IMG/VR virus record: IMGVR_UViG_3300042922_000909
Location: 1 to 46,965 of that record
Direction: 5' to 3' (one strand)
Length of the DNA: 46,965 nucleotides
Origin: a virus
In this document: piece by piece, positions 591 through 43,994 of the stretch
Numbering within the stretch: position 1 is the stretch's first letter
Layout: the number at the start of each line of letters is the position of its first letter
The notes under the pieces: model-generated
Database searches by the model: none
What the model was told of the DNA's origin: nothing
What the model saw: only the letters and a program-made list of their open reading frames with translations
Program-made: the position numbers and the translations under genes

Positions 591-1601
591 TCACGACCCC
601 TTAACGAGGCGGGTGGCAGAGGGCGTTCTACAGCGAGGCTCGTCGACTGTGTAAAGCGCGACGCAAAAGTATTCGGGATCGTCGTCCGGATCGGGTTCAA
701 TTCTCCAGGAAGTTTCGTCAAGCTCGCGATGCCCGATGAGATAACCATAGGGGCCATAGATGCTCACGGGAGGTTTGCGCCGCTGACTTCTGTATTGCTC
801 GATCAGCCTCAGTGCCTCGTCGCGTTCTTGTTCTGCTGTGGTGGCGCGGCGGCGCGCTATGTCATTCCGGTCGCCCGCTTCCGACAACGCATCTGAAAGA
901 GCACGAACCTCCTCCCTCAGCCGCGCTATCTCTGCATCTGCAGTGGTGGCGCGGGCTTGCTGGAAGTTGCGGTTTTCCTCCGCCCATCGGATCGATTCAC
1001 AGGCCTCAGCGTAGTCCTTCCGCAACCGCGCTATCTCGGTATCCTTTTTCTCGATTGCGGCTTTCACATCGAGCCAAAGGCAGGCGGTCGCGCTGCTTGA
1101 GCCGATAGCCTCAGCTACCCTCATCAGGGATTCTTGCACTTGCGCTATCTCTGCATTCTTCTGGACTATGGCAGAGGCGGCTTCCCCGCAAATACCTGTT
1201 GTCCAATATGGCGGATTGGCGGTGTTTGCGTCCAAGTCCCGCAAACGCTTCATCAGCCCGCTCACATCTCCGGGGGGAGGAAGAGCGAGGATGGCGTTGA
1301 TGATCTCTTGGCGGTCATCCGCCACCGCTGGTAGGGAGAGGATGGCGAGAATGCGGTCGCGCAATTCTTCGTCGCCGTAGACCTCGATCTTGTTGGTGTG
1401 GACCGCCGCTAACCCTGTCCCCGGCGTCTGAGTGATGCCGAAGGTCTTGTGATCATCGCCGACCTTCAAAACGTCGTCACCTTTGGTGAAGGTTCGCGCT
1501 ATCTCTTCTCGCCTTGTCATGGTCGTGCACTCCTGGCGTGATGTTTTCTTGCCGCGGAAGCGCGACTTCACATGCGCGCAAACGTCTGCGTCGGTGGTCA
1601 T
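591..1601 (-). CDS. Coiled-coil phage early protein, Ea22/DUF551-neighbour type
   Basis: The protein is 336 aa from ATG 1601, which overlaps the stop of the small membrane-protein gene as ATGA. An alternative start is ATG 1520 (309 aa), preceded by CAGGAG at good spacing. The third-position GC bias of the stretch between the two starts favours the longer form. The central part carries heptad-rich repeats with recurring EIARLR units, which predict long coiled coils. The C-terminal end holds a VALYT element, common at the end of Ea22-like early proteins of temperate phages. The role is unknown. Gene overlaps place it in the leftward early operon. Confidence 0.65.
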   Translation of the reverse strand: MTTDADVCAHVKSRFRGKKTSRQECTTMTRREEIARTFTKGDDVLKVGDDHKTFGITQTPGTGLAAVHTNKIEVYGDEELRDRILAILSLPAVADDRQEIINAILALPPPGDVSGLMKRLRDLDANTANPPYWTTGICGEAASAIVQKNAEIAQVQESLMRVAEAIGSSSATACLWLDVKAAIEKKDTEIARLRKDYAEACESIRWAEENRNFQQARATTADAEIARLREEVRALSDALSEAGDRNDIARRRATTAEQERDEALRLIEQYRSQRRKPPVSIYGPYGYLIGHRELDETSWRIEPDPDDDPEYFCVALYTVDEPRCRTPSATRLVKGS

Positions 1602-1735
1602 CGCCGCACCTGGGGAATGTCGCCGTATGGTTCGGCGTGCGGGTCGTGTGCTCGACGGGTTGTCGCGAGCGTCCAGAGGACTGCGATTCCCAACAACACA
1701 GCGATGGCGACAAGCGCGCCTGCTATCTCGGCCAT
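1598..1735 (-). CDS. Small single-pass membrane protein (45 aa)
   Basis: This 45-aa frame starts at ATG 1735 behind AAGGAGG with a 7-base spacer, the best ribosome site of the operon. Its start shares a base with the stop of the previous gene (TGATG), and its stop overlaps the next start (ATGA). The first 25 residues form one hydrophobic helix (MAEIAGALVAIAVLLGI...), followed by a polar tail, so the protein is probably membrane anchored with a cytoplasmic C-terminus. Its function is unknown. Early leftward membrane peptides in temperate phages often act in superinfection exclusion, but nothing here proves that. Confidence 0.65.
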   Translation of the reverse strand: MAEIAGALVAIAVLLGIAVLWTLATTRRAHDPHAEPYGDIPQVRR

Positions 1736-2049
1736 CACGCCGCCTCCTTGTAGAAGCGGCGTGCAAAACGCGCAGCGAGCTCCGCTCCGTCGAGATCATC
1801 GAGGAACAATTCGGAGAGTGCGCCGGCGCGGCTCAACTCGGAGGCGCGCACGGCTCTTAATCTTGGGAGGATGTCAGGGTCCGTGATTCTGACGGGCGCC
1901 CCATTCAAGAGTCGTCTTAAGGCGCCAGGGGCGCCTAGGACGACTTCAGCGCCGGCTTTGCGGGTGAACCCCGGGCGGCGTCTTAATCTGTCGGTCACCG
2001 AGCAGGCGAGGGGTCTTCTCGGGAGGGCGGTTGTTTGCTTGTTGCGCAT
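1735..2049 (-). CDS. Hypothetical protein, first gene of the leftward early operon
   Basis: This is a 104-aa basic protein without a recognised domain. The ATG at 2049 follows AAGGAG with a 7-base spacer. It starts about 25 bases downstream of the leftward operator/promoter block, so it should be the first gene expressed when repression lifts. Its stop shares a base with the following small membrane gene. The arginine-rich N-terminus could bind nucleic acid. That is a guess from composition only. Confidence 0.6.
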   Translation of the reverse strand: MRNKQTTALPRRPLACSVTDRLRRRPGFTRKAGAEVVLGAPGALRRLLNGAPVRITDPDILPRLRAVRASELSRAGALSELFLDDLDGAELAARFARRFYKEAA

Positions 2050-2071
2050 CTGTTTTCTCCTTCAACACGAA

Positions 2072-2115
2072 GAAGCTAACAAGCGCAACAAGCGGAGTCA
2101 ACAAGTGCTTGTAGA
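2072..2115 (-). promoter_or_regulatory. Leftward early promoter with operator block (PL/OL-like)
   Basis: Read on the minus strand, the block holds TTCTACAAG, then TTGTTGACT, then two CTTGTT copies, the last as CTTGTTAGC. TTGACT (2095-2100) and TAGCTT (2072-2077) are 17 bases apart and could be the -35 and -10. ACAAG-CA-CTTGT inside the block is a perfect palindrome. The same block, almost base for base and in opposite orientation, lies at 2890-2932 on the other side of the repressor. It is therefore the likely repressor operator for the leftward operon. Confidence 0.7.
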
Positions 2116-2126
2116 AATTTGTAGCC

Positions 2127-2834
2127 TTAGCCCAGGCCGGGGATGATAATTTTGTGCAATGCGTGAACATCACCGGCCGGGAACGGCGCGAGATCCTCGA
2201 GCTTTGGATTGAACTGCCGAAGCCGGAGCCCCTTCTTGTCGAACCCTATGAACTGTTTGACGTAGCCGAAGATATCGTCGGTGTTCGGGTCGCGAATCTG
2301 TGCCACCACGAAGTCATCCGGGCGGGGCTGCTTCCATGGGTGAACGAAGACCATCTCGCCGGGATAGAACCGCGGTATCATTGATGCCCCAACGACATAG
2401 AGCGCGTAGGAGTCGACCGCATCATCTATCCACGGCGGGCAGTCCGTCTGGTCTACCGTTTGATTCATGATCAAGTGGCCCTCCCCGAAGGGGCTGCCGG
2501 CAACCCGGCCAAGGACGGGGATCTTCCGGTAAGGGCGCACCGGCATGGGCGGGGCAGTATGCAGTAGGCCGCCACCCACAGCAGGATATCGCACGGTTGC
2601 CCCACCGCGCTCTCGGCGGGCGCCGCGCTGGGCATCACGCATAAGCTCGGCGAACAGCTCCTCGGGGATTTCAAGCGCGCTTGCGATTCGGCGCCAGCTA
2701 TTCGTCGGGGCTTTCGTCGCGCCGGTTTCAATCTGAGTTACGGCCTGCTGGCTGATTCCCGCCTCCTCGGCGAGCCGGGTTTGGCTCCAGCCCTTCTTTT
2801 CTCGCGTCTCGCGCACAAGCTCCGCGATATTCAT
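2127..2834 (-). CDS. cI: CI-type phage repressor, XRE HTH plus S24 peptidase
   Basis: The 235-aa repressor has an N-terminal XRE helix-turn-helix (residues about 5-60, WSQTRLAEEAGISQQAVTQ) and a C-terminal LexA/CI S24 domain. The catalytic serine is Ser151 in GASMIPRFYPGE and the lysine Lys193 in GYVKQF. Ala112-Gly113 in GRVAGS fits the self-cleavage site. In this family RecA filaments trigger cleavage, which inactivates the repressor and induces the prophage. The gene lies between two matching inverted operator blocks and is divergent from the rightward early genes. The ATG at 2834 is used because it places the HTH at the normal position. No strong Shine-Dalgarno is visible, as is common for repressor genes read from a maintenance promoter. 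Confidence 0.93.
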   Translation of the reverse strand: MNIAELVRETREKKGWSQTRLAEEAGISQQAVTQIETGATKAPTNSWRRIASALEIPEELFAELMRDAQRGARRERGGATVRYPAVGGGLLHTAPPMPVRPYRKIPVLGRVAGSPFGEGHLIMNQTVDQTDCPPWIDDAVDSYALYVVGASMIPRFYPGEMVFVHPWKQPRPDDFVVAQIRDPNTDDIFGYVKQFIGFDKKGLRLRQFNPKLEDLAPFPAGDVHALHKIIIPGLG

Positions 2835-2889
2835 TGTCGTGTCCTATCAGGTAGTTACCGCCCGGTTGGTAGCATGTTGCACAATTAAG

Positions 2890-2932
2890 TTCTACAAGGT
2901 TGTTGACTGTGCTTGTTATCACTTGTTAGCTT
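2890..2932 (+). promoter_or_regulatory. Rightward early promoter with operator block (PR/OR-like)
   Basis: TTCTACAAG, TTGTTGACT and two CTTGTT copies repeat the arrangement at 2072-2115 in the opposite orientation, differing at a few bases. TTGACT (2903-2908) and TAGCTT (2927-2932) are 18 bases apart and fit a -35/-10 pair reading right. The first rightward gene starts at 2965. The repressor gene starts at 2834 in the other direction, so this intergenic region should also hold its maintenance promoter. Confidence 0.7.
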
Positions 2933-2964
2933 GTGGGGCTAGCAATGAATCAGAGGTAACCACC

Positions 2965-3231
2965 GTGAGAAGAAGCCACGCCGCCCGCCGCATCCCCGAA
3001 GTTTACGCCTATGCCCGCGATCCTGGGCCCGCAATTGAAGATCTCGACGGCTGGGAGTTTTCCCACAGCCGCAACGCCATCGCCGATGAGTTGGCGCGAG
3101 CCGACCTCGCCGCTCAAGGCGGCCGATACCGCGATGTAAATCCCGCGATTGTCGCGCGCGAAGAGCGCGCCTTTCCGCTCCCATTCCGCGCGACTGAAAT
3201 TGAGCCTGCAGCGGTGAGGCTCGCACGATGA
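2965..3231 (+). CDS. Small early protein, first gene of the rightward operon
   Basis: The protein is 88 aa from a GTG at 2965, preceded by GAGG at an 8-base spacer. An upstream in-frame extension runs through the operator block and is rejected. Its stop overlaps the next gene's ATG (ATGA), so the two are coupled. No domain is recognised. Its position, first behind the rightward promoter, suggests an early regulatory role. Confidence 0.55.
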   Translation: MRRSHAARRIPEVYAYARDPGPAIEDLDGWEFSHSRNAIADELARADLAAQGGRYRDVNPAIVAREERAFPLPFRATEIEPAAVRLAR

Positions 3232-3476
3232 GCGCAGCAGACATGGGCAAGCACAAGGACGCTGCAGATATAATTGCTGCACAAGTTCGCGGCGCACGAG
3301 GCCTGCTGGGTATATCCCAAGCAACCCTTGCCGAGCGTTCTCGTGTCAGCCGGTCCACGATCGCTGACTTAGAGTCGGGCAAGCGTCTATCACACGACTC
3401 CACCCTCCAGATTGTCATCTCCACACTGACTACAGCGGGAGTCAGACTTACCCCCCGCGGCGTGGAGATCATGTGA
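3228..3476 (+). CDS. Small XRE-family HTH regulator (Cro-like)
   Basis: The protein is 82 aa with one helix-turn-helix (about residues 20-65, LGISQATLAERSRVSRSTIA) and the short C-terminus ending LTPRGVEIM, typical of the small XRE proteins common in Rhizobiales. It is coupled to the preceding gene by ATGA. Its place on the rightward operon, directly opposite an S24 repressor, makes a Cro-like role likely. No effector domain is present. Confidence 0.8.
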   Translation: MSAADMGKHKDAADIIAAQVRGARGLLGISQATLAERSRVSRSTIADLESGKRLSHDSTLQIVISTLTTAGVRLTPRGVEIM

Positions 3477-3500
3477 TGGTTCTCACCACAGCCACCACCT

Positions 3501-3548
3501 AGCGCAGCCCCGAGCGTAGCGTGCTGCGCTCCAGGGTGCTCTAGCACC
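3501..3548. repeat. Two inverted repeats in the 160-base gap before the early gene block
   Basis: AGCGCAG (3501-3507) pairs with CTGCGCT (3524-3530), and GGTGCT (3535-3540) pairs with AGCACC (3543-3548). The pair lies between the Cro-like gene and the next gene. No T-run follows directly, so these are more likely an antitermination, processing or operator structure than a classic terminator. Nothing else is seen in 3477-3637 except the AAGGAG of the next gene. Confidence 0.35.
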
Positions 3549-3637
3549 AACGCCAACTGGCGGCGCCGCTAGCCCCGGCGTCGTCCTTTTCCCCAGTAGC
3601 AAGACCACTAACGCGCAAAGTGCGCGAAGGAGAAAGC

Positions 3638-3862
3638 ATGCCCGAAAACTTCGAATTTGAACTGGACGAGCACGTGCAGGCAGTCGTTGAGGGCCGCATC
3701 TGCGGCCGCAAAGAAAGCACCGACCGTGGGCGGGAGTACGTCGTCGCAACGCGCACCGCGTCCGGCCGCTGTGTCTACAGAACGTTCTCGGAAGACGAAC
3801 TCGACGAGCCCGAGGGCGACGAACCCAACAGCGCCGAAGTCATTCCGCTGCGTGCGGCATAA
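3638..3862 (+). CDS. Small acidic hypothetical protein (74 aa)
   Basis: The ATG at 3638 follows AAGGAG with a 5-base spacer, so the start is well fixed. The product is strongly acidic (EDELDEPEGDE near the C-terminus) and ends in VIPLRAA, close to the VIPLAA end of the next protein. No domain is recognised. Small acidic early proteins in phages are sometimes DNA mimics, but that is only a thought from composition. Confidence 0.6.
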   Translation: MPENFEFELDEHVQAVVEGRICGRKESTDRGREYVVATRTASGRCVYRTFSEDELDEPEGDEPNSAEVIPLRAA

Positions 3863-10332: not shown

Positions 10333-10734
10333 CTATCCCACAATCTCATTGCGCACCGCGCTTGCGATGAAAGCGGAGCGAGTCATGCCCCGCGCCTTCG
10401 CCGCGTCGTCGATGGCCTCAAGCAGCCCGGTGTCGATCGACACATTAACGCGAACAGACGAGCCCCGATCGCGGATCAAAGGAACGAACGCCAGGCTCGC
10501 GCCTTCGCGGTCCTCCTCCAAGGTCGCGTCCGCCAACACCTCATCAAGAGACCGCGGAGCGGGGATCGCATCGCCGTCCGCATGCATCGCGGCGACATGG
10601 CCGGACAATGCCTCGACGGCATTCGTAAGGGCCTCGTCGGCCGTATCACCGGCCGACACGCAACCGGGGAAGTCGGGGAAGCTGACTCCGTAGGCGCTGT
10701 CGGGATCTTTGTGAACGAAAGCAACGTATCGCAT
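10333..10734 (-). CDS. hicB: HicB-type antitoxin
   Basis: The 133-aa protein has an N-terminal HicB fold (YGVSFPDFPGCVSAGDTADEA) and a C-terminal ribbon-helix-helix (VRVNVSIDTGLLEAIDDAA...GMTRSAFIASA). The first part neutralises the HicA RNase and the second binds the operator. It lies 24 bases downstream of hicA on the minus strand, converging on the methyltransferase gene. ATG 10734 follows GAGGAAGAG. Confidence 0.93.
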   Translation of the reverse strand: MRYVAFVHKDPDSAYGVSFPDFPGCVSAGDTADEALTNAVEALSGHVAAMHADGDAIPAPRSLDEVLADATLEEDREGASLAFVPLIRDRGSSVRVNVSIDTGLLEAIDDAAKARGMTRSAFIASAVRNEIVG

Positions 10735-10758: not shown

Positions 10759-10944
10759 TTACCGCCACCCCGCCTGTTTCGCTATCGACCGGACCGTTCC
10801 TTTCGGAAGGTCTTTCTTTGGGTGTGGGACCGTCACCTTCCCCGGAATTGTGGGGTGCTTGAAGTGGTGGTGGGAGCCCGTCGTGCCGACCAACACCCAC
10901 CCGGTGACTTCCAGCTTCTTGATGATGTCCCGGCTGTTCGTCAT
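10759..10944 (-). CDS. hicA: HicA-type toxin (mRNA interferase)
   Basis: The 61-aa HicA protein has the double-stranded-RNA-binding-like fold and catalytic His in TTGSHHHFKHP, followed by VTVPHPKKDLPKGTVRSIAKQAG. HicA cleaves mRNA. The toxin gene precedes the antitoxin gene, as usual for HicAB. A palindrome lies 16 bases upstream of its ATG. The pair probably stabilises the phage or acts against superinfecting phages, though the sequence alone does not tell. Confidence 0.93.
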   Translation of the reverse strand: MTNSRDIIKKLEVTGWVLVGTTGSHHHFKHPTIPGKVTVPHPKKDLPKGTVRSIAKQAGWR

Positions 10945-41664: not shown

Positions 41665-42522
41665 TCAGAGAAAAAAGTCGCCCTTCGTTATCTTCGCAAG
41701 GTTCTTCAGTGTGATGGCGAGGTCAGCCTTGCCGTCGCCGTTGATATCGGCATGGACGAAGATGTCGCCCTTCTTTTTCTCGTATCGGAGTTCGCCGGCC
41801 TTCTTGTGGAATTTCTCAGTGCCGATGAATTTGAATGCCTGATTGCCTTTTGCCTTTGAATTGGCGTCGATCCCGCGCAGATCAATCTTGTCTTTCTCGC
41901 CACGAGAGAAGTCGTAGATCGTATCGCGGCCTACTGTGAAGTTGGTGCTGTCCCGTTTGGCGAGATATACAAACTGGTCGGCGCCGCCGCCGCCCCAGAG
42001 GCTATCGCCTCCTTGGCCGCCGGTTATAGTGTCATTGCCGTCGCCGCCTGAGATGGTGTCCCGAGCTTCCTCGCCGAAAAAAGCATCGGCACCGCTGAAC
42101 CCCTCAAGGAGGTCGTTGCCCATTCCTCCAAAAATAAAGTCATCTCCAGAGAACGCGGCAGCCCAAAGGGTAATATCATCCTCCCTAGTCTCGGTCTCCG
42201 CGACCTGCCGGAGCGTGGCGTAATCAATCATGAGGCCGGACACGCTATTTGAAACCCCGGCATCAGGTGTTTCGCGGGCCATGCCCGTCACCGTGCCGGT
42301 GACGTTGCGCAGAATGTCTGTCGCAAAAGACCCATAAAGGAAAGTTTTCATCGACCAAATTTCGGTCGGCACCGTAAGGTGAAATATACTGCTGTATTGC
42401 GCGCTTGACCCGACGAAATCGGGGCCAAAAGCGATTTCTGGCGCGATCAATTGGCGGAAATTAAAACCCGAGACCGTGAAGTCCTTAGAGAGGATCACGT
42501 TCTTCCAATCAACAGTAGCCAC
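41665..42522 (-). CDS. RTX-type calcium-binding protein, probable type I secretion substrate
   Basis: From GTG 42522 (preceded by GGGGGG) the frame gives 285 aa. An N-terminal beta domain (1-120) is followed by RTX nonapeptide-like repeats at about 131-183 (GGMGNDLLEG, SGGDGNDTITGG, GGDSLWGGGGADQF). A C-terminal part includes DINGDGKADLAITL (EF-hand-like) and ends in GDFFL. Repeats bind Ca2+ after export, and the hydrophobic C-terminal end fits a type I secretion signal. No ABC exporter is nearby, so host machinery would be needed. The XRE gene upstream is on the same strand. The upstream in-frame extension is non-coding in style. Confidence 0.8.
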   Translation of the reverse strand: MATVDWKNVILSKDFTVSGFNFRQLIAPEIAFGPDFVGSSAQYSSIFHLTVPTEIWSMKTFLYGSFATDILRNVTGTVTGMARETPDAGVSNSVSGLMIDYATLRQVAETETREDDITLWAAAFSGDDFIFGGMGNDLLEGFSGADAFFGEEARDTISGGDGNDTITGGQGGDSLWGGGGADQFVYLAKRDSTNFTVGRDTIYDFSRGEKDKIDLRGIDANSKAKGNQAFKFIGTEKFHKKAGELRYEKKKGDIFVHADINGDGKADLAITLKNLAKITKGDFFL

Positions 42523-42619
42523 GGCAGCCCCCCAGATGGGCGGCCTCGCGCCCCCTGAAAAAATTTCCGGGGAACTGTGGCAAGGTGAACGCCGGTTGTC
42601 TATCCTCAACGCCAAAGCG

Positions 42620-42877
42620 CTAGTCGAATATGCTTGTCTGCCACGTGGTCGCGTACACCCCAGCGCCGCCCGCCTCATCGATAAACTTGATGCCCGCGCT
42701 TTCGAACGCGCGTCGGACCGCATCCTCGTTCGCCGCGGTCAGTTGTGTCCCGCTGTCAAATGCTTCCGCTCGGCGGATGGTAGCAACCCCAACCTGAGAC
42801 TTCTCGGCAAGATCCTCTGCACGCCAGCGGAGGATGGCTCGTGCTGCCCTGATCTGGAGTCCTTTGATACGTGACAT
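42620..42877 (-). CDS. Small XRE-family regulator upstream of the RTX gene
   Basis: The 85-aa protein from ATG 42877 (MSRIKGLQIRAARAILRW) has the HTH AEDLAEKSQVGVATIRRAEA and the usual small-XRE ending KFIDEAGGAGVYA. It is divergent from paralog C at 42972, with nested palindromes between them. It probably controls both copy C and perhaps the RTX gene 97 bases downstream. Confidence 0.8.
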   Translation of the reverse strand: MSRIKGLQIRAARAILRWRAEDLAEKSQVGVATIRRAEAFDSGTQLTAANEDAVRRAFESAGIKFIDEAGGAGVYATTWQTSIFD

Positions 42878-43349: not shown

Positions 43350-43994
43350 ATGTGCAACCTATATTCCGTCACCAAAGGCCAACAGGCGATCCGCGATCTG
43401 TTCCGGGTCGGGCGCGATCTGACCGGCAACCTTCCGCAGCTTCCGGGCATCTTTCCCGACTACATGGCCCCGATCGTCCGGACCTCGCGCGACGGCGAGC
43501 GCGTGCTCGAGATGATGCGCTGGGGGTTCCCGCCACCGCCTAATCTGTCGAACTATCCGGTCACAAATGTGCGCAACACCAAGAGCCCGTATTGGCGTGG
43601 GTGGCTGAAGCCGGAATTTCGCTGCCTGGTGCCGTTCACGTCGTTCTGTGAGTACGAGGACACCAAGCCGCGGAAGACGCCCACGTGGTTCGCGCTGTCC
43701 GAGGAACGGCCGCTCGCCGCCTTCGCTGGCATCTGGCGACCATGGACAGGCGTGAGGGGCACCAAGGCCAACCCGGTCGAGGGTGAGCACCTCGTCTTCA
43801 GCTTCCTGACCACGGACGCGAATGCCGAAGTCGGTACGATCCATCCGAAGGCCATGCCGGCTATCCTGACGACGGCCGACGAGTTCGACGCCTGGTTGGC
43901 GGCACCCATGGAAGAGGCGCTGATGCTTCAGCGGCCGTTGCTGGATGGCGCGCTCCAGATCGTAATGAAGGGCGAGCGGGAGGACGCTGCCTGA
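43350..43994 (+). CDS. SRAP (YedK/HMCES-type) DNA-protein crosslink enzyme
   Basis: The 214-aa protein starts Met-Cys2 (MCNLYS). It has the SRAP catalytic set: Cys2, Asn73 (TNVRN), Glu101 (SFCEYE) and His165 (GTIHPKAMP). SRAP enzymes covalently trap abasic sites in single-stranded DNA. The start ATG is fixed because Cys2 must be exposed after Met removal. It stands alone on the plus strand. It may protect phage DNA during replication or be a host-derived gene. Confidence 0.9.
   Translation: MCNLYSVTKGQQAIRDLFRVGRDLTGNLPQLPGIFPDYMAPIVRTSRDGERVLEMMRWGFPPPPNLSNYPVTNVRNTKSPYWRGWLKPEFRCLVPFTSFCEYEDTKPRKTPTWFALSEERPLAAFAGIWRPWTGVRGTKANPVEGEHLVFSFLTTDANAEVGTIHPKAMPAILTTADEFDAWLAAPMEEALMLQRPLLDGALQIVMKGEREDAA

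Follow-up and report, generated by a model that had tools for sequence, protein, structure and literature searches.

Virus record IMGVR_UViG_3300042922_000909 of IMG/VR, analysed over its whole length of 46,965 bases (the window), encodes a leftward-read 235-aa repressor between two candidate operator/promoter blocks. The left block (PL/OL) lies 26 bp past the repressor stop codon, on the 3' side of the gene, and reads TTCTACAAGCACTTGTTGACTCCGCTTGTTGCGCTTGTTAGCTT on the minus strand, and the right block (PR/OR), on the 5' side, reads TTCTACAAGGTTGTTGACTGTGCTTGTTATCACTTGTTAGCTT on the plus strand. The features of the locus, several of which are named after their counterparts in Rhizobium phage 16-3, are as follows, with half-sites and hexamers read from the sequence:

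1735..2049, minus strand: ORF opening the left operon (104 aa; Shine-Dalgarno GGAG)
2073..2119, minus strand: candidate left operator/promoter block (PL/OL), directed leftward away from the repressor (position and anatomy as 16-3 PL/OL1)
2073..2078, minus strand: TAGCTT, candidate PL -10 with a 17-bp spacer to the -35 (position as in 16-3, which has TATAAC at 17 bp; weak consensus match)
2079..2082, minus strand: unpaired TTGT half-site within CTTGTT
2088..2091, minus strand: unpaired TTGT half-site within CTTGTT
2096..2101, minus strand: PL -35 hexamer TTGACT (identical to the annotated 16-3 PL -35)
2101..2112, no strand: OL1-like dyad ACAAGTGCTTGT, the sole ACAA-N4-TTGT of the window (aligned with 10 relatives)
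2119..2122, minus strand: left block, outer half-site (ACAA)
2127..2834, minus strand: repressor, 235 aa (Pfam HTH_3, 3.7e-12; Peptidase_S24, 9.6e-11; phrog_4, 7e-28)
2881..2884, plus strand: right block, outer half-site (ACAA)
2887..2932, plus strand: candidate right operator/promoter block (PR/OR), directed rightward (sequence, BLAST and alignment)
2894..2903, no strand: OR1-like dyad ACAAGGTTGT, the sole ACAA-N2-TTGT of the window, overlapping the -35 by one base
2903..2908, plus strand: PR -35 hexamer TTGACT
2913..2916, plus strand: unpaired TTGT half-site within CTTGTT
2923..2926, plus strand: unpaired TTGT half-site within CTTGTT
2927..2932, plus strand: TAGCTT, candidate PR -10 with an 18-bp spacer to the -35 (weak consensus)
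2931-2934, plus strand: further TTGT
2965..3231, plus strand: ORF opening the right operon (88 aa; GTG start; Shine-Dalgarno GAGGT)
3228..3476, plus strand: 82-aa HTH_3 protein at the Cro position (HTH_3, 1e-08)

When aligned as an inverted pair, the blocks at 2073-2119 (minus) and 2887-2932 (plus) are identical in 39 of 48 columns, and their local score of 28.5 was reached by none of 5,000 pairs generated by Markov-1 shuffling of both intergenic gaps (shuffle maximum 18). A preliminary description of this DNA had noted nearly identical inverted blocks on both sides of the repressor, which these values bear out, and the shared words, coordinates and 17- and 18-base spacings between TTGACT and TAGCTT that it listed are correct as read directly. 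BLAST of the 901-bp region against the whole record returned the same inverted pair (81% over 47 bp, E 1.9e-5); outside the pair, the highest-scoring match in the window to one or the other block stands at 15.5-16. ACAA/TTGT tetramers reach a density of at least four per 60 bp in two places only of the 46,965 bp, namely the right block (six) and the left block (five); the maxima in 60 whole-window Markov shuffles, which served as the control for this clustering, were 3-5. A search of IMG/VR for the same block with two degenerate patterns gave no matches.

Both blocks are built on a common plan of a single dyad, a -35 hexamer and tandem half-sites. ACAA-N-TTGT arrangements with spacers of 0-8 in the whole record are restricted to the N4 dyad of the left block, which overlaps the TTGACT by one base, and the N2 dyad of the right block. 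Direct CTTGTT units follow at a distance of 9 bp from each other in the left block and 10 bp in the right. An exact mirror of four inner half-sites, ACAA-N9-ACAA-N2-TTGT-N9-TTGT, is seen in the right block (2881-2934, plus strand) and is absent from the left. The candidate -10 element TAGCTT is a poor match to TATAAT (3/6), and a sigma-70 consensus scan of positions 1500-3700 found no promoter, and the promoter assignment therefore rests on position and on homology to 16-3. A divergent promoter for the repressor itself (Pc) is expected on the other strand of the right block.

The repressor combines an N-terminal HTH_3 domain with a C-terminal S24 (LexA/CI-type) peptidase domain, both above the Pfam cut-off, and residues Ser151, Lys193 and Gly113 are conserved in alignments, as in S24 phage repressors. 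Ser151 and Lys193 are the putative catalytic residues and Ala112-Gly113 the putative cleavage site. Among annotated proteins its best relatives are C repressors, those of Sinorhizobium phages NV1.1.1 and AP-16-3 and of Rhizobium phages RHph_X2_25 and 16-3, to which it shows 33-35% identity over 94-98% (38-39% in a five-way alignment). As a single-protein query it found no close relatives in viral or genome contigs; distant relatives were recovered by an alignment-based query, while an alignment of 13 repressors was too heterogeneous for searching.

The preliminary description had likened the blocks to lambda OL/OR in a different phage group. The lambda-like layout is upheld by homology and anatomy, but that group already has a characterised switch, that of 16-3, and the window is a variant of this arrangement with an unusual operator layout. 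The 16-3 record DQ500118, from whose GenBank annotation the 16-3 operator facts given here are taken, places OL1, OL2 and PL on one side of the c gene and OR1, OR2, PR and Pc on the other. In both phages homologous S24 repressors (34-38% identical) are encoded between divergent PL and PR, with PL close behind the repressor stop, ACAA/TTGT dyads and a recognition helix of the Gln-Gln (QQ) type. OL1 of 16-3 (ACAATTGCTTGT) overlaps the PL -35 TTGACT by one base, as does its counterpart in the left block (ACAAGCACTTGT), and TTGTTGACT is identical in the left block and 16-3 OL1/PL. Most of ten 16-3-type relatives align like the window at OL1 and the PL -35, and the distance from the repressor stop to this hexamer, 25 bases in the window, is 13-26 bases in the ten by the same count. 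The early genes also point to a placement with the 16-3 group, the Sak4-like protein of the window phage showing 68% identity to its RHph_TM3_3_14B homologue and 59% to that of 16-3.

The two switches differ in the make-up of their operators. Where OL2 of 16-3 forms a second full N4 dyad between the -35 and -10 elements, the window has two direct CTTGTT half-sites, and where the OR dyads of 16-3 have N6 spacers, the window contains no ACAA-N6-TTGT and has N2 instead; N5 also occurs in relatives. Beyond their half-sites the OL and OR of 16-3 are unlike, with a best inverted score of 15 that 19-30 of 300 shuffles also attained, whereas those of the window are near copies, and the 16-3 PL has TATAAC as its -10 in place of the weak TAGCTT. 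With lambda the window shares the geometry of a leftward-read repressor gene between leftward PL and rightward PR, with operators over both, and, as judged by its domains, a self-cleaving S24-type repressor like CI. In contrast to the three 17-bp dyad operators on each side of lambda, which CI and Cro share, each block has one dyad, and the lambda half-site is a different one, its operators having no sequence relation to those of the window.

The Gln-Gln pair of the 434 repressor reads an ACAA half-site, and the 434 operators are of the ACAA-N6-TTGT kind. Across 55 residues the HTH of the window repressor can be aligned with the 434 repressor, whose structure is known, and the Gln-Gln and the following Q are conserved. 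The conserved pair, a likeness in sequence only, sits at the beginning of the recognition helix (SQQAVTQIE), whereas overall similarity to 434 is weak (E 7e-4); the window contains no N6 dyads, and no 434-like QQ Cro was found among the early proteins scanned. The helix predicts ACAA/TTGT half-sites, the very units that fill both blocks. Across 30 distinct repressor relatives, the window's own included, ACAA-N2..7-TTGT dyads occur near nine of ten repressors with a QQ helix and near none of the 20 without (Fisher 7e-7, a value that overstates independence, several QQ repressors being close kin and the viral scan having been seeded partly on a QQA peptide). Even so, recognition helix and operator change together across these relatives. 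Spacer length varies across the group: among QQ-type repressors of other virus records, L066 has dyads with 5-bp spacers in the U and D flanks of its repressor, and L078 has a 7-bp spacer. Other repeated words flank non-QQ repressors of the group on both sides, such as TTTCGGTA/AATCGGTAA in L027 (repressor at 940-1653, minus strand) and CCTATA words in L006, L065 and L069. These look like differently specified operators on the same OL/OR plan.

No family was matched in Pfam or PHROG by either the 104-aa or the 88-aa ORF that opens the left and right operons, respectively. The 82-aa protein in the Cro position has the recognition helix SRSTIADLE, which lacks the Gln-Gln pair; it is the only HTH protein among the early right-operon proteins scanned, none of which was recognised as a QQ-type Cro, and on account of this helix it was judged unlikely to be a Cro that acts on the repressor's sites. 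A HicB-like antitoxin/HicA toxin pair is encoded on the minus strand inside the rightward early region (10333-10734 and 10759-10944; Pfam HicB_lk_antitox, 4e-30, and HicA_toxin, 8.5e-24). Terminase, portal, tape measure and tail tip proteins and a tyrosine integrase are also encoded, indicating that the window represents a temperate tailed phage. A protein with RTX calcium-binding nonapeptide repeats (41665-42723, minus strand; Pfam HemolysinCabind, 7e-11) lies near the tail-gene end, and a SRAP-domain protein (SOS response associated peptidase, HMCES/YedK type) is found at 43350-43994 (plus strand; Pfam, 4.8e-25).

Several other origins of the paired blocks may be considered. Both gaps are AT-richer than the genome, which has a GC content of 61.5%, and AT-rich intergenic DNA might come to resemble itself by chance; the Markov shuffles of these same gaps, not one of which attained the observed score, ruled this out, and it carries virtually no weight. 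A recent duplication or gene conversion of a promoter pair, such that the identity reflects common origin and not operator function, would account for the extension of the similarity over the whole 46 bp, promoter hexamers included, and for a score of 28.5 where 16-3 OL/OR yields 15. All nine differing columns, however, fall outside the ACAA/TTGT units (9/9, P 0.017), so that differences lie only between the half-sites, which are what 16-3-type operators share, and common origin is in any case compatible with operator function; as an alternative to such function, duplication seems very improbable.

The tandem CTTGTT units (in steps of 9-10 and 13 bp) might instead be direct-repeat sites of a second, Cro- or CII-like regulator such as the 82-aa HTH protein, the S24 repressor being confined to the single dyad of each block. 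The units are indeed direct and not inverted, a search for degenerate ACAA partners at 2-7 bp spacing upstream of them found none above 2/4 matches, and the Cro position is occupied by the gene for a small HTH protein. The helix of this protein, though, is without the Gln-Gln pair that accompanies ACAA/TTGT sites, and unpaired tandem TTGT units together with dyads are also present at the PR of 16-3 and its kin, which suggests that the same repressor reads them. A second regulator at the tandem units is regarded as unlikely.

The blocks very probably represent the OL/PL and OR/PR regions of a CI-type switch in a temperate 16-3-related phage, with a repressor that binds ACAA/TTGT half-sites. Homology and anatomy give good support to reading the blocks as lambda-like OL/OR; we infer binding, promoter activity, autoregulation and induction of the switch. 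The 235-aa repressor would bind the half-sites, including those within the CTTGTT units, through its 434/16-3-like Gln-Gln helix, occupying the dyad over each -35 and the extra half-sites across the spacer and -10. Such occupancy would shut off both the leftward operon (PL) and the rightward early operon (PR), and at OR the repressor would also control its own divergent promoter. Upon DNA damage, self-cleavage by the S24 domain would release both promoters. It is conceivable, if rather doubtful, that the operators consist mainly of tandem single half-sites (CTTGTT, in steps of 9-13 bp) for which one dyad, its spacer varying (2 or 4 bp), provides the seed, with the near-identical PL and PR blocks being filled by cooperative spreading and not through two or three separate dimer sites.

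The switch extends the 16-3/434-type repressor code, in which a Gln-Gln helix is paired with an ACAA half-site, to a divergent phage. The dyad spacers of 2, 4, 5, 6 and 7 bp form a natural series in which the tolerance of one repressor fold for operator spacing may be tested. There is precedent in Methylobacterium for the use of 16-3 PR (PMC3694467), and the repressor and promoters of the window phage likely constitute a matched pair for alphaproteobacterial tools.
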